DNA of 50,729 bases from an uncultured Blautia sp. Its GTDB lineage: Bacteria > Bacillota > Clostridia > Lachnospirales > Lachnospiraceae. The DNA lies in contig CAKRYE010000008.1 in assembly GCA_934426285.1 (NCBI GenBank), forward strand, positions 1 to 50,729, written 5' to 3'. Both the position numbers and the translations under genes were made by a program. Of the stretch, positions 9,416 to 50,628 are shown piece by piece; position 1 is the first letter of the stretch, and the number at the start of each line of letters is the position of its first letter. The notes under the pieces were generated by a model. That model had not been told where the DNA came from. It worked only from the letters and a program-made list of their open reading frames with translations, and ran no database searches.

Positions 9416-11590
9416 TTACATTTCTTTTTTACGTCTTCTCACCAGCACGTAACCGCCTGCCAGGATAGATGCTGCTGCCAGTGCCATCATAGTACCAACC
9501 GGTGATTCATCTCCTGTAGATACTGCTGACTTGGAAGCAGATCCGCTTGTTCCATCTGCATAAGTGGTCGGTGTCAGATCTGATGTACCCTCTGCTGTTC
9601 CGTCTCCTCCATAAGTACCGCCTGAACCGGTAACACCAGGAGTTACAGATGTCTGAGCCAGAGGAGCTGCCTTAAACTGATATTTTACAGATTCGATAAT
9701 ACCGCTCTGTGCCTGCCATTCTGTTCCGCTGTAAACCTCTTTCTGGAAGAATACATAAATATCATAGGTTGTCTCTGCATCCTTGTAAATACCCTTGGCA
9801 GCGCCGATCTTCCAGGTAGTATGCATATCCTTGGAGGATGGATTTGCTGACATGCTCCAGTACTGTGGTACCCATCTTACATCTCCCTCATGAGGATCTG
9901 TATTGTCTGTACCTGCACCGATTGCTCTGAAATCATAGAAGGTTCCAGGATAGAAGGTAAGTGCATTTTCAAAGCCCTGAACCTTACTTTCTGTAACTGC
10001 CGGTGTCTTTGGTACCGGGGTAGGTGTTACAGGAGCCTCCGGACGTTTCTGTGCACTGTTGTCAACCTTTACAGATTTATAGTTTTTAGAATCCTTTTCA
10101 CTGATTACAGTTACATAAATATCCACATCATAATCCGGCAGATCTGTTACTGTAACAGTTGTGCTCTTATCAGCCTTGATCTTCTGACCGCTTACAGTGA
10201 TCTCAGGTGCTTTTTCACCCTTTTTCACCCAGTCAACCTGGTAAAGTCCGTTAATATTGGTATGGAATTTAATCTCATAGCTGCTGTGGCTGGTCCATTT
10301 ACCACTTTCGATTTTGATCGCAGCCTTTGCTTCCGGTTTCTCAGAAGGAGTTGGAGTTATCGTTACAGTGGGATCTACCAGTGTACCGTCTTCCCCAATG
10401 GTAAAGGTCTGTCCTTCATAAGTAAGCTGAGGCAGAACATCTGCCAGTGTTACATCTGTTACACCTTCTGCTAATCCTACTACTGATACACCGGCTTTTG
10501 CATCCTTTACCTGCACGCTGATCGTAGAACCTGTCATCGCACCGGTCACGTTGATTTTGGCATCTTCTCCTGCCAGAACCAGGTTGCTGACAGCATCATT
10601 CTGATCCTTATTTTCTGTTACAGATACAGTGCCCTTTACATTTACTGCACTTTCACTGTAGATACCACCGCCAAGTGCTGCTGTATTGCCTGTAACAGTT
10701 CCGCCCTGCAGATATACGTTGGCACCGGAAGCTGCATTGACAGCTCCACCCTGTGCTGCTGTGTTACCTGTGACAGTTCCTCCTAAAAGATAGAAAGCTG
10801 CACCGGAAGCCACGTTAACAGCTCCACCATTTACCTCTGTGGAAGTGTTGGCATTTCCGGAAAGTGTTACACCATCAGAAATTCCAAAGGTACCGCTCTG
10901 TACATCAACCGTAGGTGCTGTCACAGCTGTTGTGCCGTCTCCTGTAGCATCTACTGTAATAGAACCGGTTCCTATAGCGTTTCCGTCTTTATCATTTACT
11001 GTACCGCCGGCAATCTGGAAAATACCACCGGATACTGAGAAAAGGCTTCCTGCAAAACCGGCAGCACGTTTGATCTTAACATCCTCTGCTGTTGCAACCA
11101 ACATAATATTTTTGTTGGCCGGCACATCAATGGTCTCCCCAAGCTCAATCTCGCTGCTGATCTTAATGTATGTAGGATCATTGGCTTCAGCTGTACTGTC
11201 AGGTACTGCTGCAAATGCTTCCTTCAGAGTTGCATAGGCAGTCTCGCCGATCACGATTGTTCCGCTTCCTGTTTCTTCTGCAGCCGGTACCTCAGTAGGA
11301 TCTGCTTCCTGTGTTTCCGGAGCCTCTGCTGGGGTTTCTGCCGGTGTTTCATCAGGAGTTTCTACAGGAGTCTCTGCCGGTGTTTCCGGATTCTCTGCCG
11401 GTGTTTCTGAAGCTGCCGGATCCTCTGCCGGATCCTCTGCCGGCTCTTCTGTACCTTCCTCTGCTGCCAACTCTCCCTCTGCTTCTGCCTGTGCTGCTAC
11501 TGTATCTGCTGCTGCAAATGCAGCAGAAGGAGCCATTCCCATAGATAATGCTCCAGCCATCAAAATGGCAAATAATTGTTTTCTCCTCAT
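9416..11590 (-). CDS. Secreted cell-wall beta-helix protein with sortase-like tail
   Basis: 724 residues, function unknown. A signal peptide (residues 1-27, cleavage near AFA|AAD) is followed by a Glu/Pro/Thr-rich spacer (about 35-110) of imperfect ETPAE-type repeats. A beta-helix region (about 112-390) has rungs such as GGTVTGNTAAQGGAVN. Two beta-sandwich-like stretches (about 415-520 and 535-640) are separated by Pro/Thr linkers. The C-terminus has the layout of a sortase substrate: AVSTGDESP, a hydrophobic segment, then RRRKKEM. The Pro of LPXTG is missing; TGD variants of this kind occur in Lachnospiraceae surface proteins. It is a single-gene unit with its own promoter and terminator, and possibly an adhesin or glycan-binding protein. 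Confidence 0.85.
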   Translation of the reverse strand: MRRKQLFAILMAGALSMGMAPSAAFAAADTVAAQAEAEGELAAEEGTEEPAEDPAEDPAASETPAENPETPAETPVETPDETPAETPAEAPETQEADPTEVPAAEETGSGTIVIGETAYATLKEAFAAVPDSTAEANDPTYIKISSEIELGETIDVPANKNIMLVATAEDVKIKRAAGFAGSLFSVSGGIFQIAGGTVNDKDGNAIGTGSITVDATGDGTTAVTAPTVDVQSGTFGISDGVTLSGNANTSTEVNGGAVNVASGAAFYLLGGTVTGNTAAQGGAVNAASGANVYLQGGTVTGNTAALGGGIYSESAVNVKGTVSVTENKDQNDAVSNLVLAGEDAKINVTGAMTGSTISVQVKDAKAGVSVVGLAEGVTDVTLADVLPQLTYEGQTFTIGEDGTLVDPTVTITPTPSEKPEAKAAIKIESGKWTSHSSYEIKFHTNINGLYQVDWVKKGEKAPEITVSGQKIKADKSTTVTVTDLPDYDVDIYVTVISEKDSKNYKSVKVDNSAQKRPEAPVTPTPVPKTPAVTESKVQGFENALTFYPGTFYDFRAIGAGTDNTDPHEGDVRWVPQYWSMSANPSSKDMHTTWKIGAAKGIYKDAETTYDIYVFFQKEVYSGTEWQAQSGIIESVKYQFKAAPLAQTSVTPGVTGSGGTYGGDGTAEGTSDLTPTTYADGTSGSASKSAVSTGDESPVGTMMALAAASILAGGYVLVRRRKKEM

Positions 11591-39582: not shown

Positions 39583-40383
39583 CTATTCTACAACCACTGT
39601 CAACTCAGCACTGTTGGACATATTGCCGGCTATGTCAACCACATAATAGGTACAGGTATAAGTACCTGCTACTGCAGTATTCACCTGTCCTGTAATCTGG
39701 ATTCTCTTCCACAGTTCAGAAGTCTCATCTGTATCATCCTGAATATCCTTCACATAAGAAAGCAGATCCACAGAACTTCCCACAGAAGTAGTCACATAAT
39801 AGTCTGTAAGATAAATTTTCGGGCTGGTGGATGGCATGGCATCCGCCTTTGCCACCTGCTCCTGTTCTGCCAGAGCAGCAGGATCATCTGAGGCAGGAGT
39901 TAATTCAGGGGTTGGAGTCAAAGACAGATCCGTACTGTCAAACTCAGAATCTCCTGTCTCCACATCCTCCACCGGAACCTGGGTAGGCTCTGCATCTGTT
40001 TCCGTATCAGCATCAGACTTTGTTCCTCTCTTCACTACCCCACTGTCCCGCATTTTCTCAGGGTCAGCCTCTAAATTTCTCTTAAACTTGGTAATATTAT
40101 TGGAGTTATCCTTTGCCACATAAGTGACAACCACATGAGAATCATCCACCTCATACACGGATTCCACAGTCAGAGTATCTGTCACATCTCCGTCTACATC
40201 ATCACTGGCAGTAATGCCCTGGGTCAGGTCTGCATCGCTCATAGAAGGGTCATATTCTTTTGCCGCCTGATCTGAGCAGGCAATCTCAGGGCCCTTATGA
40301 TCGGACTCCGTTCTCAGATATACGACTCCGCCAGCCAGCCCCACGCAGACAACCAGCATCACTGCAATCCACTTTTTTGCCAT
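39583..40383 (-). CDS. Exported Ig-like (DUF5011-type) protein of the exopolysaccharide cluster
   Basis: 266 residues from the ATG at 40383 (MAKKWIAVMLVV), with AAGGAG 8 bases upstream. The N-terminal hydrophobic segment (5-25) is a signal peptide or anchor. Two beta-sandwich repeats are visible: about 30-105 (DVDGDVTDTLTVESVYEVDD and VTYVAKDNSNN), and about 195-265 (YTCTYYVVDIAGNMSNSAEL). A Glu/Asp/Thr/Pro-rich linker separates them. The pattern DVDGDVT...YTVTD.AGN is that of DUF5011/HYR-type bacterial Ig-like domains. Enzymatic activity is unlikely. It lies between cpsD and the LCP gene. Confidence 0.78.
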   Translation of the reverse strand: MAKKWIAVMLVVCVGLAGGVVYLRTESDHKGPEIACSDQAAKEYDPSMSDADLTQGITASDDVDGDVTDTLTVESVYEVDDSHVVVTYVAKDNSNNITKFKRNLEADPEKMRDSGVVKRGTKSDADTETDAEPTQVPVEDVETGDSEFDSTDLSLTPTPELTPASDDPAALAEQEQVAKADAMPSTSPKIYLTDYYVTTSVGSSVDLLSYVKDIQDDTDETSELWKRIQITGQVNTAVAGTYTCTYYVVDIAGNMSNSAELTVVVE

Positions 40384-41880: not shown

Positions 41881-42624
41881 TTATCTTTCCTTCCTTCTTT
41901 TCGCATCCTCCAGAATTCTCCGGGGATTTTCTATAAATAAATGGTCTGCATAAGCTTCTCCCATTTTTTTCGCAACATAATCATAGGCTTCGCCCATCCT
42001 GGAAATACGGCTTCTGGTATTGTGACAGTCTGAGCCTACAAACTTCACCAGATCATATTTCATCAGTTTCCTGCAATACCTTTTGGTGGAAAAGCCTTCC
42101 TTACCCACAATACTGTCTGCATTGATCTGCATGGATACTCCCATATCCACAAGCTCCTCCACGAAGCCCAGGTCTGACCTTGTGGCCTCATACCTTTCTA
42201 TATGGGCTGCAATGGGCTTATAGCCACTGGAAATCAGCTTGTTCAGCCTTTCCCTTATGTAAGAGCCCTCTGAGCTCTCCGAAAACTCCGCCAGCACATA
42301 CCTGGAACCTGCCATGGTGCTGACCTCTCCCTCTCTCAGCATACGGTACATCTCCATATTGGCGTGGAACTCACAGCCAAGATATACCTGAAGATCATCA
42401 CCGATCTCCGCTGCTGCCTTCTGTACAAGCAAAAACTGCTCCTGCACTCTGGACAAAGGGGTCTCAAACATACGAAATCTGAAATGAGGTGTGGCAATAA
42501 TGTTCCTTACCCCCTGATCATATTCCATACGCAAAAGCTTCTTCGTATCCTCATAATCTGAGGCGCCGTCATCCACTCCCGGTACAATATGACAGTGAAT
42601 GTCATAGATACCTGTTCTGGACAT
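41881..42624 (-). CDS. cpsB: CpsB/YwqE tyrosine-protein phosphatase (PHP fold)
   Basis: 247 residues from the ATG at 42624 (MSRTGIYDIHCHIVPGVDDG), with AGGAGG upstream; the longer start at 42660 lacks one. The PHP metal-binding motif is DIHCHIVPGVDDGA. Further metal ligands are in TPHF, CEFHAN and GSDCHNT near the end. It removes phosphate from the CpsD tyrosine cluster. It is first in the cluster and has its own promoter. Confidence 0.93.
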   Translation of the reverse strand: MSRTGIYDIHCHIVPGVDDGASDYEDTKKLLRMEYDQGVRNIIATPHFRFRMFETPLSRVQEQFLLVQKAAAEIGDDLQVYLGCEFHANMEMYRMLREGEVSTMAGSRYVLAEFSESSEGSYIRERLNKLISSGYKPIAAHIERYEATRSDLGFVEELVDMGVSMQINADSIVGKEGFSTKRYCRKLMKYDLVKFVGSDCHNTRSRISRMGEAYDYVAKKMGEAYADHLFIENPRRILEDAKRRKER

Positions 42625-42644
42625 ATTTATCAATCCTCCTTCGC

Positions 42645-42762: not shown

Positions 42763-42822
42763 TAAACAGAGAAAGCAAAAGAAAAAATGTCTGAAACCAA
42801 ACAGGCCCTACAGGAGGTACCT

Positions 42823-43926
42823 ATGAAAAAGCAAAACAAATTACTTTCCTTATTATTATCCCTGTTTCTGCTGCTGTTTACCCTGGCTCCCCAGTCAGCC
42901 CTGACAGTCTATGCAGATGAAAACGGAGACATGGCTGTCCATTTTATTGATATCGGACAGGGAAATGCCATTCTGGTACAGTCAGGAGGTCAGAATCTTC
43001 TCTATGACGGAGGAGACCAGAGCCATGCCGACCTACTCATCTCTTATCTGCAGCAGCAAAATGTAGAAACCATTGACTATATGATTGCCTCCCACTATGA
43101 CGAGGATCATATCGGTGGCCTTGTTCCCTGCATAGATGATTTCTCTGTAAGCAATATTTTCGGCCCGGATTATGTACATACTTCCAATTTATTCAACAAT
43201 TTCATGAATACTGCCACTGCAAATGCCATCATCGTACAGTACCCTTCTGTAGGTGAGACCTTTGATTTCGGTACCGGAAGCTTCACTGTACTGGCGCCGA
43301 ACGGCATCAGCCAGAACAGCAATGACAACTCCCTTGTGATCAAGCTTGAAAACGGCTCCAACAGTTTTATTTTTACAGGCGATGCCGAGGAAACCAGTGA
43401 ACAGGATATGATCAGTACAGGCATGAACCTTGACTGCGATGTGCTGTCTGTAGGCCATCACGGATCCGCAAGCTCTACAACCTGGGACTTCCTTGCAGCA
43501 ACCTCACCTTCCTACGCAGTGATAAGCTGTGGGATCGATAATCAGTATCATCACCCGTCTGCTGATACCATGGGACGCCTGTCAGATATGGAAATCCCTG
43601 TATTCCGTACAGATAAACAGGGCACAATCATTGCAGTATCTGACGGAACCGGCATCACATGGTCTCAGGAGCCCTGCAATGATTATTCTGCAGGCGGCTC
43701 TTCTGCAACATCTTCAGGTCAGAATGAAACGACGGTATCCGATCCGGCTCCTGCACAGACAGAAAATGCCGGAGCAGATATAGGCACAATGGTGTGGATA
43801 CCTGCAACCGGCCAAAAGTATCACAGTATTCCAAACTGTGGAAAAATGAATCCGGACAATGCCCGGCAAATTTCAAAATCCGATGCAGAAGCCAGAGGAT
43901 ATGACGCCTGCAGTAAATGCTGGTAA
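42823..43926 (+). CDS. Secreted metallo-beta-lactamase-fold hydrolase, ComEC C-domain-like
   Basis: 367 residues from the ATG at 42823 (MKKQNKLLSLL), with AGGAGGTACCT before it; the open frame begins 36 bases earlier. A signal peptide covers about 1-33. The domain resembles the extracellular hydrolase part of ComEC: HFIDIGQGNAILVQ, the metal motif ASHYDEDHIGG (HxxxDH), GDAEETSEQDM and LSVGHHGSASSTTWDF. A low-complexity Ser/Ala/Thr linker leads to a C-terminal domain with YHSIPNCGKM and GYDACSKCW, a small Cys-rich module often seen at the end of secreted nucleases. No channel domain is present, so it is free and not part of ComEC. Substrate unknown, possibly nucleic acid. Confidence 0.85.
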   Translation: MKKQNKLLSLLLSLFLLLFTLAPQSALTVYADENGDMAVHFIDIGQGNAILVQSGGQNLLYDGGDQSHADLLISYLQQQNVETIDYMIASHYDEDHIGGLVPCIDDFSVSNIFGPDYVHTSNLFNNFMNTATANAIIVQYPSVGETFDFGTGSFTVLAPNGISQNSNDNSLVIKLENGSNSFIFTGDAEETSEQDMISTGMNLDCDVLSVGHHGSASSTTWDFLAATSPSYAVISCGIDNQYHHPSADTMGRLSDMEIPVFRTDKQGTIIAVSDGTGITWSQEPCNDYSAGGSSATSSGQNETTVSDPAPAQTENAGADIGTMVWIPATGQKYHSIPNCGKMNPDNARQISKSDAEARGYDACSKCW

Positions 43927-45418: not shown

Positions 45419-45826
45419 TTATTGCATGTTCGGTGTTGACTGCGGAGTCTGCATTTTCGGAAGTTTCACTGTAACTGAACCACCTGAGGAATGAGTGCTT
45501 GGCCCACTTGAAACATGGCTTCCTGAAGAGTGGGAACTATGATTGCTGTGGGAGCCATGGCTGCTGTGACTGCTTGAAGAATGAGATGCATGGCTTCCAT
45601 GTGTACTTGATCTGTGGGAACTATGGCTGCTGTGGGAACTGTGAGATCTATGGGAACTATGAGATCTGTGCGCCGCATAAACATTACTGTCTGCAAGCAT
45701 AACTCCAAGAATCACCATCATGGATCCAATCATAGCCACTTTTGATCTGGAGATATTTCCCTCTTCCTCCTGCATAAAGTCTTCAATTCCTTTTTTTATC
45801 TGAGGAAATAATTCATTCTTATCCAT
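45419..45826 (-). CDS. hxsA: His-Xaa-Ser repeat protein (HxsA-type substrate)
   Basis: 135 residues from the ATG at 45826 (MDKNELFPQIKKGIED); AAGG lies 7 bases upstream, while the ATG at 45832 abuts it. The leader (1-29) is hydrophilic and acidic. A hydrophobic helix lies at about 30-45 (VAMIGSMMVILGVML), ending ADSNVYA, a plausible signal-peptidase site at 51. Residues 53-114 contain 17 His, 16 of them in His-X-Ser triplets (HSS, HRS, HGS, HAS, HVS). The tail is SVTVKLPKMQTPQSTPNMQ. This is the repeat that defines the Hxs system (HxsA family). Two radical SAM enzymes encoded upstream presumably modify it. It starts 2 bases after the MORN gene's stop. Confidence 0.85.
   Translation of the reverse strand: MDKNELFPQIKKGIEDFMQEEEGNISRSKVAMIGSMMVILGVMLADSNVYAAHRSHSSHRSHSSHSSHSSHRSSTHGSHASHSSSSHSSHGSHSNHSSHSSGSHVSSGPSTHSSGGSVTVKLPKMQTPQSTPNMQ
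45485..45670 (-). repeat. His-Xaa-Ser triplet repeat tract
   Basis: A 186-base tract of 9-base units encoding His-X-Ser, with the middle residue Ser, Arg, Gly, Ala or Val, interrupted by ST, SS, GS and SGPST. Codon use varies between units, so the tract has been kept for its protein sequence and is not a recent slippage product. Confidence 0.85.
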
Positions 45827-45828
45827 TC

Positions 45829-46395
45829 TCATACCTTCTTTCTGCTATATACCTTTGTGAGTCTTCCATTGCTGACCTGAATAGAATATACATTACTCTT
45901 GATTTTCAGTGTTGCTTTACCATGGAGCTTTCCATTCTTCCAGGTTCCTTTTACATAATTTTTGCTTTTCCATGTATAAGTACCGGCACCGTTCATTTTG
46001 TCATTTTTCCATCGTCCTGTAAATTTATCTCCATTCTTAAACCAGTAAGTGCCACTTCCATTTCTCTTATCTTCTGAAAAATATCCGGTGAATTTTTCAT
46101 TATTTTTATATTTTACAGTGGCTTTTCCTTCCAGATAATTATCTTCCCAGTAACCGGTGATCACGGCTCCATTCTTACAGTAGTAGGTTCCTTTTCCCTC
46201 TTTCTCAAAAATATTTGCATCGTCATCGTCAATATCCGCATCCCACCCTGAATCACTAACATTTCCTATATAGATGTCTCCATTATCATAGGTAAGTGTC
46301 CGCGTAGCAGCCATCACCTCACAGGGTTGTGCGATTCCCAGCGTAAGAACCAGACTAATCAACACAAAAGTCAACAATTTTCGCAGCTTTTTCAT
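45829..46395 (-). CDS. Secreted MORN-repeat protein of the Hxs operon
   Basis: 188 residues. A signal peptide (about 1-29, ending VMAA) is followed by MORN motifs: YDNGDIYIGNV, KNGAVITGYWEDNYLEGKA, YKNNEKFTGYFSEDKRNGSG, FKNGDKFTGRWKNDKMNGAG, and KNYVKGTWKNGKLHGKA. MORN repeats bind lipids or proteins in other systems. An acidic DDDDA insertion lies near residue 56. It is secreted like HxsA and encoded 2 bases upstream of it, so the two products probably act together outside the cell. The gene starts 19 bases after hxsB with GGAGG. Its role is unknown. Confidence 0.85.
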   Translation of the reverse strand: MKKLRKLLTFVLISLVLTLGIAQPCEVMAATRTLTYDNGDIYIGNVSDSGWDADIDDDDANIFEKEGKGTYYCKNGAVITGYWEDNYLEGKATVKYKNNEKFTGYFSEDKRNGSGTYWFKNGDKFTGRWKNDKMNGAGTYTWKSKNYVKGTWKNGKLHGKATLKIKSNVYSIQVSNGRLTKVYSRKKV

Positions 46396-46414
46396 TTTCT
46401 TTCTCCTCCTTTTT

Positions 46415-47815
46415 CTACTGACACCAGGATTTTAAAATTCCTATTGTCTGTTCATCATTTTCGTACAATTTCTCAAACAGTATTTCCTGGATTCCTTTAT
46501 AAATACTGCATCTGTATTCTTCTTCCATTCTTGGGTACACAGTCTTATATCTGGCATAACTGATGACCGGGCAGGTTCCGCAGTATGGATGATATACGCA
46601 GTCACAACAGTCTGTCAGACCTTCCAGACAAGATGCATTGGCAAGAACCTTGCATGCCGGTGCACTCATCAATTGGTTATAATCATTGTCGTAGACATTT
46701 CCCAGGCAAAAGCTGTCATCTCCCATCTCTGCAAGCATTCTTGCTTCATCACAACTGTAAACTTTTCCATTATAATAATAAGCCATCTGACCGATCGCGC
46801 CACCACAGGGAGAACGCAATTCCATATAATTCCCTGCATCATGGTTAAATAGCTTATCCAGAAAAATTCTGGCATGACCTTCAACCATTAATATCCCCTT
46901 CCGGTTAAGCTCCAGAATATATTCAAAAATTTTTCTGTAAAATTCCAAAAATTCCTCCACTGTATATCCTATGGTATCCCAGTTATCCTTTGCATACCCC
47001 AGTGGAGTTAATGGTCGGACAATAATCTGGTTCAATCCAAAGGCATGATACTGATCTACCAGTTCTTTGTATCTTGACAAAGAATATCTGGTAGTTGTCT
47101 GAATTGCAGATACCGGAGTTTCGCATTCCTCTAATCTCTGCAGACGTTTCTCCAGAATTTTAAAAGCGTTTCTGTTCAGGTATGGCCGGTTTCTGTTATG
47201 TAAAAATTCATCTCCATCAAGAGAAGTACAGATAGAAACCTGGTTCTCAGTAAGAAACTCCAGTTTTTCTTCATCCAGCAGCATAAGATTTGAAACCAGC
47301 GAAAATTCAATTTCCTTGTCCGTCTGCTGTTCTCTGGTGTATTCCACAATATGCCGAAGTGTCTCAAAATTCATTAATGGCTCTCCACCCTGAAACTCGA
47401 AAGTCAGAAAATGTGCCGGTGCCTGTAACGCAATGTCAACAGCTCTCTCTGCCGTTTCAAAAGTCATCTTTGTATGCCTGTCAAGATCTGTAGATGCCTG
47501 ACAGTACACACATTGCTGATTGCACTGTTTCGTCAGTACAAAAATATGAAGTGATGCCCCCTGAAAAAGATTTCTTCTGTATTCCCGAAATTCTGCTCCT
47601 GCTTTTTCTACAAAATCATAATCGCTGCCTTCATAGAGAAAATATTCATCCTTAAGTTTCTCTGCAATTTCTTCCTGCGAATCAAGTTTATCCGTGACAA
47701 AACGCAGGAATTCTTCCTTTGTCAGAAAGATATATCTTCCAAGATCGTTCGTCAGAAGATATTTATCTTTTACTTTCTTATAGTTAAAATAATTTCTTTT
47801 CATCCTATTACTCAT
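46415..47815 (-). CDS. hxsB: Radical SAM maturase HxsB
   Basis: 466 residues. The N-terminus (FNYKKVKDKYLLTNDLGRYI and FLTKEEF) matches the HxsB-type leader region. The radical SAM cluster is KQCNQQCVYCQAS (C98, C102, C105), followed by the GGEPLMNFETL motif. A SPASM-like C-terminal region with many Cys (CGGAIGQM, YSCDEARM, CLEGLTDCCDC, HPYCGTCP) should hold auxiliary Fe-S clusters. Family knowledge puts it in the His-Xaa-Ser system. The start overlaps the hxsC stop by 4 bases (ATGA). Confidence 0.88.
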   Translation of the reverse strand: MSNRMKRNYFNYKKVKDKYLLTNDLGRYIFLTKEEFLRFVTDKLDSQEEIAEKLKDEYFLYEGSDYDFVEKAGAEFREYRRNLFQGASLHIFVLTKQCNQQCVYCQASTDLDRHTKMTFETAERAVDIALQAPAHFLTFEFQGGEPLMNFETLRHIVEYTREQQTDKEIEFSLVSNLMLLDEEKLEFLTENQVSICTSLDGDEFLHNRNRPYLNRNAFKILEKRLQRLEECETPVSAIQTTTRYSLSRYKELVDQYHAFGLNQIIVRPLTPLGYAKDNWDTIGYTVEEFLEFYRKIFEYILELNRKGILMVEGHARIFLDKLFNHDAGNYMELRSPCGGAIGQMAYYYNGKVYSCDEARMLAEMGDDSFCLGNVYDNDYNQLMSAPACKVLANASCLEGLTDCCDCVYHPYCGTCPVISYARYKTVYPRMEEEYRCSIYKGIQEILFEKLYENDEQTIGILKSWCQ

Positions 47816-48861
47816 TCCAGTACCCTGACCTTATATTTTGTATGATGGTAGGTAGAGAAGAAAAATCCTCCACATTTCTGCTTTTCTCCGCATTGTTCAC
47901 ACTCATCGAAGTATCGTATTTTATATCCGCTGATACTGTTCTTATAGCAGTACCAGTATTTTTTGTCAAAAAGACACAATGGAAAATTGTACAAACCCGG
48001 TTCAATCCCACATCTGAAGCTCTCCTCCAATGCACTTTGCAGATATGGTTTTAATTCATCCATTTCTATCCAGACAACTTCCCTGTTTTTCCATGCATTT
48101 CCCAAAACTTCCATTCCCATAATATTTATGTATTTAACAGATGGAAATTCCTGAGCAATAAAACGAATAATAGAATTCAACTCCATATAATTCAGTCTGG
48201 AAACAACGATACGGATTCCAACCTTCACACCATACGCAAGTAAATGATGAATACCAGCCTTTGTCTGCACAAAACTCCCCGGGCGTCCTGCAATCAGATC
48301 ATGCCTGTCCTCCTGTGCACTATGGATTGGAATTTCAATCTTAAATCTCTTATCTGAAAAAACAGCAAACTCTGCTGCATATTTACGATCAGCAAAGCTT
48401 CTTCCATTTGACAACATCAGAACCTCTGCTTCCTCTGCCTGTTCTGTCATGTGTCTGATCAGCGGCTGAAGTTTATATTTCAGTAAAGTAGGCTCACCTC
48501 CTGTAATATCTACATGCATCAGATCTGACGGCAGTAATGAGATATATTCCATCAGATATTCGTATGTAACAGGATTTGATCTTGTGCGGACTTTTACAGA
48601 GTCCGGACACATGATGCAATTAGAATTGCACTGATTTGTCACATAGACAAGTGCACTGGAAGAACTTCCATCATGGAGTCGGATCACCTTTCCTTTTTGG
48701 GTAAGTTCTATTACATCTCCATGGCATAATTCTTCCCCTTCTGCCCTCTCTATAGCGAACTTTTCACCATTAACATCAGCTGCATACCAAATGTCTTCAC
48801 TTTTCTCAATTCTCCAGAGACGATCCTTTCTGAGATCTGTCAGTTTCGTAAAATTTTTCAT
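47812..48861 (-). CDS. hxsC: Radical SAM maturase HxsC
   Basis: 349 residues from the ATG at 48861 (MKNFTKLTDL), which overlaps the stop of the peptidase gene by 4 bases (ATGA); longer starts to 48975 would lie within that gene. The radical SAM cluster is TNQCNSNCIMCPDSVKV (C78, C82, C85), and the glycine-rich SAM site is DITGGEPTLL. The C-terminus has a CEQCGEKQKCGG cluster-like motif. The domain layout and position beside hxsB identify it as HxsC. Which residue each enzyme modifies is unknown. Confidence 0.87.
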   Translation of the reverse strand: MKNFTKLTDLRKDRLWRIEKSEDIWYAADVNGEKFAIERAEGEELCHGDVIELTQKGKVIRLHDGSSSSALVYVTNQCNSNCIMCPDSVKVRTRSNPVTYEYLMEYISLLPSDLMHVDITGGEPTLLKYKLQPLIRHMTEQAEEAEVLMLSNGRSFADRKYAAEFAVFSDKRFKIEIPIHSAQEDRHDLIAGRPGSFVQTKAGIHHLLAYGVKVGIRIVVSRLNYMELNSIIRFIAQEFPSVKYINIMGMEVLGNAWKNREVVWIEMDELKPYLQSALEESFRCGIEPGLYNFPLCLFDKKYWYCYKNSISGYKIRYFDECEQCGEKQKCGGFFFSTYHHTKYKVRVLE

Positions 48862-49901
48862 TTTAAACGCCATACTCCGATCAAATATGTAATCATTCCT
48901 ATTAATATAAAGACTGCAAATGGAATATATCTCACAACCATTATCTGTGTTTTTCCATATTTGGATTTCTCCCATCTTCTTATGGAATCTGCTTCTTCCT
49001 GAGTGATCCTTGACTTCGTAGTTTCATCCGTAGAAACCGGCAAACCTTTTACCCTGGAACCATAAAACTGTTGAATTGCAAAATAAGACAAAATCATTCC
49101 TGCTTTCACATCGGAAGTCCGAATCCACTCATAATTAAATCTGTCTGCAAACTTCAGGCTGAAATGAGTCACCACTACAAGGATTACCGTCATTCCCAAC
49201 ATTCTGAGATCATATCCTCCCCGGAAACTAAGACTGATAACCAAATATACAATCAACATTCCCAATGTCCATATCTTCTTATGAGGTACTCTTGTGGATA
49301 TCAGCTTATTTGTCATCAGGATTCCTATCAGAGAGAAAAAAATCCTGTTACTTTCAAAATAGTCTTTCAGTATATAGCTGCAGGCAGTGTATACCAGTGA
49401 TAAAAATAAAATAGAAAAACCTACATCCCACAACTGTTCCGGCTGAAATTTCTCCTGATGAAAAGTAACTGCTTTATCTTTATGAAAAACTGCAAGCCAC
49501 AGAGATTCTCCTATCAGATAAATATAAGCTTCAATGAAGATCAGCATAAACATTATCATTGACGGAAACAGCATTTTATCAGCAATCGCATACCATCCGG
49601 CAGGATAAAGGAAATTCACAAACAACCATAATTTCGAATCACCTGCCCCCCATAATTTCCATGCAAAAAACAAAACTGCAATGATAAATGCTGACAGAAA
49701 ATTCGTAAGAAACAGGGATATAAGATCTCTATGCCAGAAATAGTACAAAGCTGCCAGCACAATCCCCGGACACATTCCCACAGTCAGCCATTTATTGTAA
49801 ATCTTTCCTCTTTTCCAGTCTGTCACTGCTGCAACTGCACAGATAAATATAAGATACAGGAGCATAAAATACTCAACATAATTTACAGCATGATCAGTCA
49901 T
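48858..49901 (-). CDS. A24-family prepilin-type aspartic peptidase in the Hxs operon
   Basis: 347 residues, about eight or nine membrane helices. Both aspartates of the A24 family are visible: D28 in AAVTDWKRGKIYNKW and D88 in WGAGDSKLWL (GxGD). The family cuts prepilins and related class III signal peptides on the cytosolic face. No pilus genes are in view; the only neighbouring exported candidates are HxsA and the MORN protein. The first half carries the peptidase core; the second half (beyond about 180) is extra membrane sequence. The gene overlaps its upstream neighbour by 8 bases and hxsC by 4, so it is integral to the operon. It is not one of the four Hxs core families. Confidence 0.82.
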   Translation of the reverse strand: MTDHAVNYVEYFMLLYLIFICAVAAVTDWKRGKIYNKWLTVGMCPGIVLAALYYFWHRDLISLFLTNFLSAFIIAVLFFAWKLWGAGDSKLWLFVNFLYPAGWYAIADKMLFPSMIMFMLIFIEAYIYLIGESLWLAVFHKDKAVTFHQEKFQPEQLWDVGFSILFLSLVYTACSYILKDYFESNRIFFSLIGILMTNKLISTRVPHKKIWTLGMLIVYLVISLSFRGGYDLRMLGMTVILVVVTHFSLKFADRFNYEWIRTSDVKAGMILSYFAIQQFYGSRVKGLPVSTDETTKSRITQEEADSIRRWEKSKYGKTQIMVVRYIPFAVFILIGMITYLIGVWRLK

Positions 49902-50121
49902 ACAAATCCCCCGTATTTTTAATGGTTACTATAAGGACATAATTTCTGAATTCATTCAGCAATATTTCCACATCTGCCTTACATTTCGAGAAAATCAAAT
50001 GATAATAATTACTTTCTTCCGCTATTAAAATATCTGCAAGACTACTGAAAGCTGATATGGATTTCTCCACTGCATCCCAGGTATAAATTCCTTTATTTAG
50101 CAACAAACTATTTTTCATCAT
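49894..50121 (-). CDS. Small protein of the Hxs operon, possible divergent HxsD paralogue
   Basis: 75 residues from the ATG at 50121 (MMKNSLLLNK), preceded by GAGG; the open frame to 50160 would overlap hxsD by more. No signal peptide. It aligns by eye with HxsD: GIYTWDAVEKSISAF against CIYPLKAVYRAAYLL, then SNYYHLIFSK against EEYFIYFSSK, then VEILLNEF against FQNELLDQ. It may be a duplicated and shortened HxsD or a recognition-type partner for the radical SAM enzymes. The stop is inside the peptidase gene (8-base overlap). Confidence 0.65.
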   Translation of the reverse strand: MMKNSLLLNKGIYTWDAVEKSISAFSSLADILIAEESNYYHLIFSKCKADVEILLNEFRNYVLIVTIKNTGDLYD

Positions 50122-50515
50122 TCCATGCCTCAGCAATTTCTTCCAGATTATATTCTTCATTTCTATCTGTCTCCGCCTCTTCGTCCTGTGGAATGAACGC
50201 GCTGTATAAAGCTCTTGTCACGATCAGCTCCCGAAGCTGTCTGGTATCTTTCCCAATCTCCAGTTTCATACTCTGATCCAGCAGCTCATTCTGAAAGCGT
50301 CCGGCATCCTCATAATCCACTGCTTTCATTTTTCCCTCATACGTTCTCTCTTTACTGGAAAAATAAATAAAATATTCTTCTGCATTCTGATCGATTCCTA
50401 TATAATATTCATCTGTCAGCAAATATGCAGCCCTGTAGACAGCCTTTAAAGGGTAAATGCATTTCTTAACTTTAAAGCAAATTCTGCCATCTTCTGTTCT
50501 TTCGTAATCTAACAT
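50108..50515 (-). CDS. hxsD: His-Xaa-Ser system protein HxsD
   Basis: 135 residues, cytosolic. The central part shows features of HxsD: KCIYPLKAVYRAAYLLTDEY, EEYFIYFSSK, DAGRFQNELLDQSMKLEI and RELIVTRALYSAFI. The C-terminal 30 residues are acidic. HxsD's role is unknown; small proteins of this position often help recruit substrate to maturases. It is the first gene of the operon, with GAGG before the ATG and TATAAT further upstream. Confidence 0.82.
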   Translation of the reverse strand: MLDYERTEDGRICFKVKKCIYPLKAVYRAAYLLTDEYYIGIDQNAEEYFIYFSSKERTYEGKMKAVDYEDAGRFQNELLDQSMKLEIGKDTRQLRELIVTRALYSAFIPQDEEAETDRNEEYNLEEIAEAWNDEK

Positions 50516-50548
50516 ACACTATCCTCTATGTTTCGTAGTATTTCTTTT

Positions 50549-50554
50549 ATTATA
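50549..50554 (-). promoter_or_regulatory. -10 element for the Hxs operon
   Basis: Minus strand TATAAT (50554-50549), 34 bases before the hxsD start. No convincing -35 was found at the right spacing. Confidence 0.55.
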
Positions 50555-50628
50555 TACCTATTTTGAGCAGAAATCTATTCTATTTAATAAGATAAGCACT
50601 CAATTTTGCAAACAGTTTTATGTTTACC

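Follow-up and report, generated by a model that had tools for sequence, protein, structure and literature searches.

Why should an operon that apparently makes a modified peptide encode a prepilin peptidase-like protein of its own? The question is raised by a contig of an uncultured Blautia sp. (assembly GCA_934426285.1, contig CAKRYE010000008.1; the 50,729 nucleotides analysed are referred to below as the window), in which the minus strand carries, from 50515 down to 45419, a compact operon of seven open reading frames belonging to the Hxs (His-Xaa-Ser) type. The canonical Hxs system, in which HxsA or HxsA2 is accompanied by HxsB, HxsC and HxsD (TIGR03976-03979, NF038296), is credited in PMC9062424 to Haft and Basu. 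The operon of the window belongs to a variant of this system from Firmicutes that is conserved and apparently mobile; here the place of the ordinary signal of the canonical substrate is taken by a prepilin-like leader together with a dedicated A24-type peptidase. We propose, and consider somewhat better than an even bet, that this HxsA3-type operon resembles the systems for ribosomally synthesized and post-translationally modified peptides (RiPPs), with the radical S-adenosylmethionine (SAM) enzymes HxsB and HxsC modifying the repeats of the substrate HxsA3, and the A24 peptidase cutting HxsA3 after a conserved Gly.

The gene order is HxsD, a small HxsD-like protein, an A24-type prepilin peptidase-like membrane protein, HxsC, HxsB, a MORN-repeat protein and HxsA3. 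The first-pass annotation of the window had already placed the seven frames at these positions and attributed them to an Hxs system, and the attribution holds: five of the products exceed their NCBIfam cut-offs, and the repeat substrate lies within the operon. HxsB (46415..47815; 466 aa, with a Cys-rich C-terminal region) scores 517.7 bits against TIGR03978 (cut-off 370) and HxsC (47812..48873; 353 aa) 292.3 bits against TIGR03977 (cut-off 267.9), while the second-best NCBIfam families reach only 135.8 and 61.6 bits, respectively. Thus, in the comparison with other radical SAM families that had been called for, both maturases score highest to their own Hxs models. HxsD (50108..50515; 135 aa, 59 homologues) scores 65.3 bits against TIGR03976 (cut-off 50), the small HxsD-like protein (49894..50118) 61.5 bits against NF038315 (cut-off 41), and HxsA3 (45419..45832; 137 aa) 111.5 bits against NF038309 (cut-off 65). 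Of the four core families named in the first-pass annotation, HxsB, HxsC and HxsD therefore fit, but the supposed HxsA is HxsA3: with the canonical HxsA model TIGR03979 it reaches only 15.0 bits (cut-off 121.65), and this assignment was rejected. Likewise, the small HxsD-like gene is real, but its family had already been modelled, as HxsD_rel, the name used below.

Eight intact HxsA3 loci share an identical gene order: the window; L001 from Blautia sp. MSJ-9, the one locus to emerge when genome contigs were scanned with HxsB, in which all seven genes are present and HxsB is 92% identical to that of the window; L033, L034, L035, L040 and L057 from genome scans; and L095, found with HxsB on a human faecal scaffold in a phage collection and kept out of every model that was built. 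The A24 and HxsD_rel genes occur in all eight and the MORN gene in seven, being missing solely in L035; the peptidase and the MORN protein are thus genuine members of the operon, as had been claimed, but the seven genes are not a fixed set. Among the seven loci compared, HxsB is 42-52% identical, apart from two close pairs at 92% and 63%. In the genome draws scanned, which overlap, HxsB lies above its cut-off in 5 of 397 genomes from the family of the MSJ-9 genome, HxsD_rel in 2 of 398 genomes of the phylum, and HxsD in 2 of 398 genomes of the phylum, 1 of 189 from the family of genome G540, 1 of 5 from the genus of G103, and 3 of 64 from the genus of the Blautia genome.

The substrate HxsA3 is built of an acidic leader that ends in a conserved Gly, a hydrophobic segment, and the repeats. 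In the window, 16 of the 17 His residues of the repeat core have Ser at +2, which is above chance (in 10,000 shuffles the count averaged 6.9 and never exceeded 14), and across 81 HxsA3 cores this holds for 832 of the 1,082 His residues that have a +2 residue at all, the commonest spacing between His residues being 3 (716 pairs). The leader of the window protein comprises residues 1-25 (45758..45832) and ends at Gly25, the proposed site of A24 cleavage. The motif [DES][EQ][ED]G[NS]I at the leader end is present in all 82 HxsA3 sequences considered, namely 73 homologues (all that were obtained by leader similarity) and nine loci; since the former were retrieved by the leader itself, the unbiased count is that of the nine loci (9/9), which are the window and eight reached via HxsB, HxsD or HxsD_rel. 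The first repeat His follows the Gly at a distance of 29 residues in 77 of the 82 sequences (30 in four, 27 in one), all 81 leaders of the set without L095 carry a net negative charge, and in an alignment of 14 sequences the leader Gly is invariant, as are a Gly within the hydrophobic segment and, two positions ahead of the first repeat His, an Ala.

The site cut by A24 enzymes is a conserved Gly preceded by acidic residues and located on the cytosolic flank of a hydrophobic segment; a Gly or Ala at -1 ahead of such a segment is the mark of class III signals, to which classic prepilins add a Glu at +5. The Gly at -1 is found in 82 of 82 HxsA3 sequences and in all nine unbiased loci (signal-like and hydrophobic segments were assigned by eye here and below, except that a hydropathy mean was computed for HxsA3). 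The genomes that carry these loci offer a direct comparison, as Flp1-like pilins (PF16982) were detected in eight of the nine genomes examined. In the eight leaders listed out of nine matches (the ninth, L071, is outside the comparison), [DE]E[DES] is followed by Gly (four) or Ala (four), ahead of a hydrophobic segment. HxsA3 and pilins of the same genomes have in common an acidic leader whose last residue, Gly or Ala, precedes a hydrophobic segment, and it is from this likeness that we place the putative A24 cut after Gly25.

The candidate peptidase (48858..49901; 347 aa) has the two Asp residues expected of the catalytic pair of an A24 enzyme, D28 and D88, the second of them in a GAGD version of the GxGD motif. 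In the alignment of 81 of its 86 homologues (at least 300 aa) with seven loci, D28 is conserved in 86 of 87 rows and D88 in 88 of 88, and five of the seven members of the Hxs A24 alignment match Peptidase_A24 (PF01478) at E <= 0.01. A profile made of the seven Hxs-type proteins, with at most five candidates scored per genome, matched 4 of the 397 family genomes at E <= 1e-15, all of them among the five with HxsB above the cut-off. Because these four loci contributed to the profile, the independent finding is that none of the 392 family genomes in which HxsB stays below its cut-off was matched at this threshold. The identities of the A24 protein and HxsB are correlated among loci (r = 0.98 over 21 non-independent pairs, falling to 0.90 when the closest pair is left out). 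The Asp pair is common to the Hxs-type protein and the prepilin peptidases of Tad/Flp systems; however, at 347 aa the former is about double the length of two other A24 proteins from these genomes, whose open frames span 176 and 180 aa, and neither a pilus ATPase nor a platform protein is among the seven genes of the operon. Small A24 genes elsewhere in genomes G009 and G1015 give weak matches to the Hxs-type profile that cover its first 95 residues, and the one in G009 lies about 5 kb from a Flp1-like gene.

Canonical Hxs loci share with the HxsA3 variant the paired radical SAM maturases, HxsD, a His-Xaa-Ser substrate and the compact cassette. At E <= 1e-20, HxsB of the window has matches in 413 plasmid records, all with less than 60% identity, and 26 of the 30 matches listed are annotated as hxsB; from these 30 we selected by hand, for variety, 14 loci from Alpha-, Beta- and Gammaproteobacteria, Cyanobacteria, Bacteroidota and Spirochaetota. 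Profiles of the A24, HxsD_rel and MORN proteins identified none of these genes in the 14 plasmid loci, the lone HxsD_rel match being the HxsD of the locus concerned. Unlike HxsA3, the canonical substrates begin with a signal-like N-terminus, followed by a linker and then the repeats, and in none of the 14 does [DE][DE]G precede the hydrophobic segment; the one match, in L074, sits behind the signal region.

Taken together, we envisage the following scenario. HxsA3 would be synthesized with its acidic leader (residues 1-25) on the cytosolic side, followed by a hydrophobic segment for export and by the His-Xaa-Ser repeats, which HxsB and HxsC would modify in the cytosol with the assistance of HxsD and HxsD_rel. 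The modified protein would then enter the membrane, where the A24 protein, acting as a prepilin-type aspartyl peptidase, would cut [ED]G|[NS]I and release the leader, so that the modified repeats would become exposed at the cell surface, either still anchored through the hydrophobic segment or detached by a signal peptidase cut at an A|xH site directly ahead of them. The MORN protein may be an extracytoplasmic partner of the product. It is tempting to regard the whole as a hybrid, in which a radical-SAM-modified RiPP with a pilin-like precursor loses its leader to its own A24 peptidase and ends as a membrane-anchored rod of His-Ser cyclophanes on the surface; in this complete form the proposal is tentative, and we would sooner doubt than assert it.

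The cyclophane in this scenario is our best guess at the chemistry, guided by known reactions. The best solved relatives of HxsB are 5wgg ('Radical SAM domain protein' in the PDB), a SCIFF maturase, and anaerobic sulfatase maturases. In the triceptides, according to the portion of PMC11002830 concerned, radical SAM maturases join an aromatic or His residue to the C-beta at i+2. Reported bonds run from His C2 to the C-beta of Ala or Arg, the partner being at i+2 when the motif reads His-Ala-Ala, and from Phe C4 to the C-beta of Ser. By analogy with these links the most likely product would be a three-residue His-to-Ser(i+2) cyclophane, repeated along the repeat region. The Hxs systems differ from the triceptides in having two maturases and a long repeat substrate, and their link is only predicted. 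The alternative is that HxsB converts the repeat Ser residues to formylglycine, or epimerises residues, and that the repeats then bind metal or become cross-linked to the cell wall; it concerns the chemistry only, is compatible with A24 cleavage, and in our estimate is somewhat improbable. The sulfatase maturases among the relatives of HxsB speak in its favor, as do the His-rich repeats, which may suggest metal binding, and the annotation of three canonical substrates as peptidoglycan-binding. On the other hand, the commonest His spacing of 3 suits an i to i+2 link, and HxsA3 of L035 (L035:6404-7123), with 12 HxT and only 3 HxS units, is a poor fit to formylglycine and agrees better with a bond to C-beta.

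Several observations weigh against A24 cleavage of HxsA3 as we propose it. The window protein falls 0.1 bit short of the PF01478 cut-off (26.4 versus 26.5 bits), and no A24 relative is among the structural matches listed for its predicted structure, a model of modest quality (mean predicted local distance difference test score, pLDDT, of 73.8). HxsA3 departs from Flp-type prepilins in that Glu at +5 is absent (0/82) and a short hydrophilic stretch precedes the hydrophobic segment, which begins about six residues past the Gly. The presence of A24 is confounded with phylum, as the HxsA3 loci of known taxonomy are from Firmicutes and none of the 14 canonical loci is. Two genomes belong here as well: in G333, the fifth genome with HxsB, neither HxsA3 nor the Hxs A24 is found in the assembly even at E <= 0.001 (its Hxs contig, of 3,735 bases, is cut within HxsC), and G1006 retains HxsA3 and a shortened HxsD without the Hxs A24. 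HxsD is predicted to be a small alpha/beta protein, for which neither a clear relative nor any indication of a known RiPP recognition fold was found. Finally, the leader could be kept for recognition by the maturases alone, and a signal-peptidase-like site lies directly ahead of the repeats, with Ala at -1 and A, V, S, T or I at -3 in 82 of 82 sequences.

The last two points lead to another explanation, in which the A24 protein serves for clean-up: signal peptidase I would free the repeats at A|xH, and the A24 protein would degrade or clip the membrane-bound leader in the manner of signal peptide peptidase, the leader itself serving only the maturases. The residues at -1 and -3, which define the specificity of signal peptidase I, agree with it in every sequence, and RiPP systems normally have conserved leaders as recognition elements. 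However, a similar Ala-[AG]-His occurs in many canonical HxsA proteins far from the signal, so that the A|xH site may instead be a maturase motif; a Gly behind an acidic run on the cytosolic side is what A24 enzymes target, and the pilins of the same genomes share the pattern. Moreover, canonical Hxs systems have signal-like leaders yet no such protease in any of the 14 loci, and we regard clean-up as unlikely. Still less do we expect that the A24 protein acts on some other exported protein, or accompanies the operon for an unrelated reason. Its substrate is only predicted, and the Flp1-like pilins, present in all but one of the genomes examined, are possible substrates, but the gene always lies between an HxsD-like gene and HxsC (8/8 loci), the Asp pair is conserved, the identities track those of HxsB, and at E <= 1e-15 the profile finds no counterpart in the 392 family genomes whose HxsB stays below the cut-off or is absent. 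Cleavage of HxsA3 by the A24 peptidase after the leader Gly is thus the reading that we retain.

The Hxs system is widespread, as the plasmid matches of HxsB indicate, yet the literature searched offers no product for it: HxsA-D are named there, with no biochemistry in the portions available to the search, in agreement with the earlier statement that the system has no assigned product. HxsA3 is not named in this literature, and no relevant paper, as judged by title or count, was found that connects prepilin peptidases, A24 enzymes or prepilin leaders with RiPPs; in a review of RiPP leader proteases (PMC10885120), a term search of the main text finds none of 'prepilin', 'A24' and 'aspartyl'. 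The suggestion that the variant is wholly new has nevertheless to be withdrawn, because the NCBIfam models NF038309 (HxsA3) and NF038315 (HxsD_rel), both of which describe single proteins, already fit it and indicate that it is known to curators as protein families. If our proposal is true, it would add a new class of protease to RiPP maturation and, within the literature searched, the first prepilin peptidase to act as a RiPP leader protease. The cassette probably makes an enzyme-modified, His-rich surface peptide, apparently with a leader peptidase borrowed from pilus systems, and this offers a first handle on the system: because the variant has a protease of its own and a predicted site of cleavage, both lacking in the canonical systems, the order of maturation and the mature product become directly testable.

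As regards the remaining features of the operon, the MORN-repeat protein (45829..46395; 188 aa) matches PF02493 with 62.7 bits in four stretches and is putatively exported. In all seven loci that have it, its N-terminus resembles a signal or membrane segment, which suggests an extracytoplasmic partner, although its role is a guess. The genes form one tight unit, as previously described, with five overlaps of 4-16 bases (11, 8, 16, 4 and 4) and a single gap of 19 bases. These lengths were computed with HxsC starting from the ATG at 48873, preferred to the first ATG at 48975 from comparison with L001, and with HxsD_rel starting from the ATG at 50118, which overlaps the HxsD stop by 11 bases and gives 74 aa (the longest open reading frame, of 88 aa, starts at 50160).

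The apparent mobility of the cassette follows from its context in close relatives. Between the window, compared from position 40001 onward, and MSJ-9, 81.4% DNA identity extends over 45419-50578 with no match adjoining that block, only 151 window bases being comparable on the upstream side; the sole other match, a separate 69% stretch at 41984-42641, is located elsewhere in L001. In genome G1006, a member of the same genus, the neighbouring MATE gene of the window has a counterpart with 80% identity; the 11.5 kb examined there contain no Hxs gene next to it, and the Hxs remnant of this genome lies on a different contig. The block edges in MSJ-9 and the surroundings of the MATE gene in G1006 indicate that the cassette apparently occupies different sites in near relatives. 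The AT-richness from which horizontal gain had earlier been suspected is real, with a GC content of 0.387 in the operon and 0.451 in positions 1-45418, but as an argument it is the weaker one: the operon has a lower GC content than its flanks in all seven loci measured, by at least 0.06 in just four of them, and horizontal movement seems to be supported better by genomic context than by composition.

Three further contigs, cut or carrying remnants, were excluded from the counts of intact loci. L036 is a short contig that has HxsB and part of HxsC but no HxsA3, L058 (9078-9816) retains a shortened HxsD and HxsA3, and L037 (8848-9738) a piece of HxsB; the latter two suggest loss of the Hxs system in relatives. 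Among canonical loci, substrates are annotated as peptidoglycan-binding in L048 (L048:3231-3992), L076 (L076:3268-4026) and L074 (L074:7109-7759), pointing to a role in the cell envelope. A canonical Hxs operon is also annotated in the Leptospira phage LnoZ_CZ214 (L096, KF114877.1), with the gene order of the Leptospira plasmid locus L075; it was assessed from the annotation only and stands outside the 14 loci.

In L033 (L033:12448-15655) and L034 (L034:12561-13682), a protein of the Halogen_Hydrol family (PF10112) is encoded downstream of HxsA3, followed in L033 by two TelA genes (PF05816), which possibly form part of a wider Hxs cluster. The flanks of the L040 operon (L040:119-3808 and 9722-11008) encode a protein-kinase-like protein, a membrane protein with a weak match to DUF5050, a product without matches, and an HlyD-type protein. 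In the window itself, positions 42787-43926 encode a metallo-beta-lactamase-fold protein with a signal-like start, which resembles the C-terminal part of ComEC/Rec2 with 157.4 bits, below the cut-off of 190.05.

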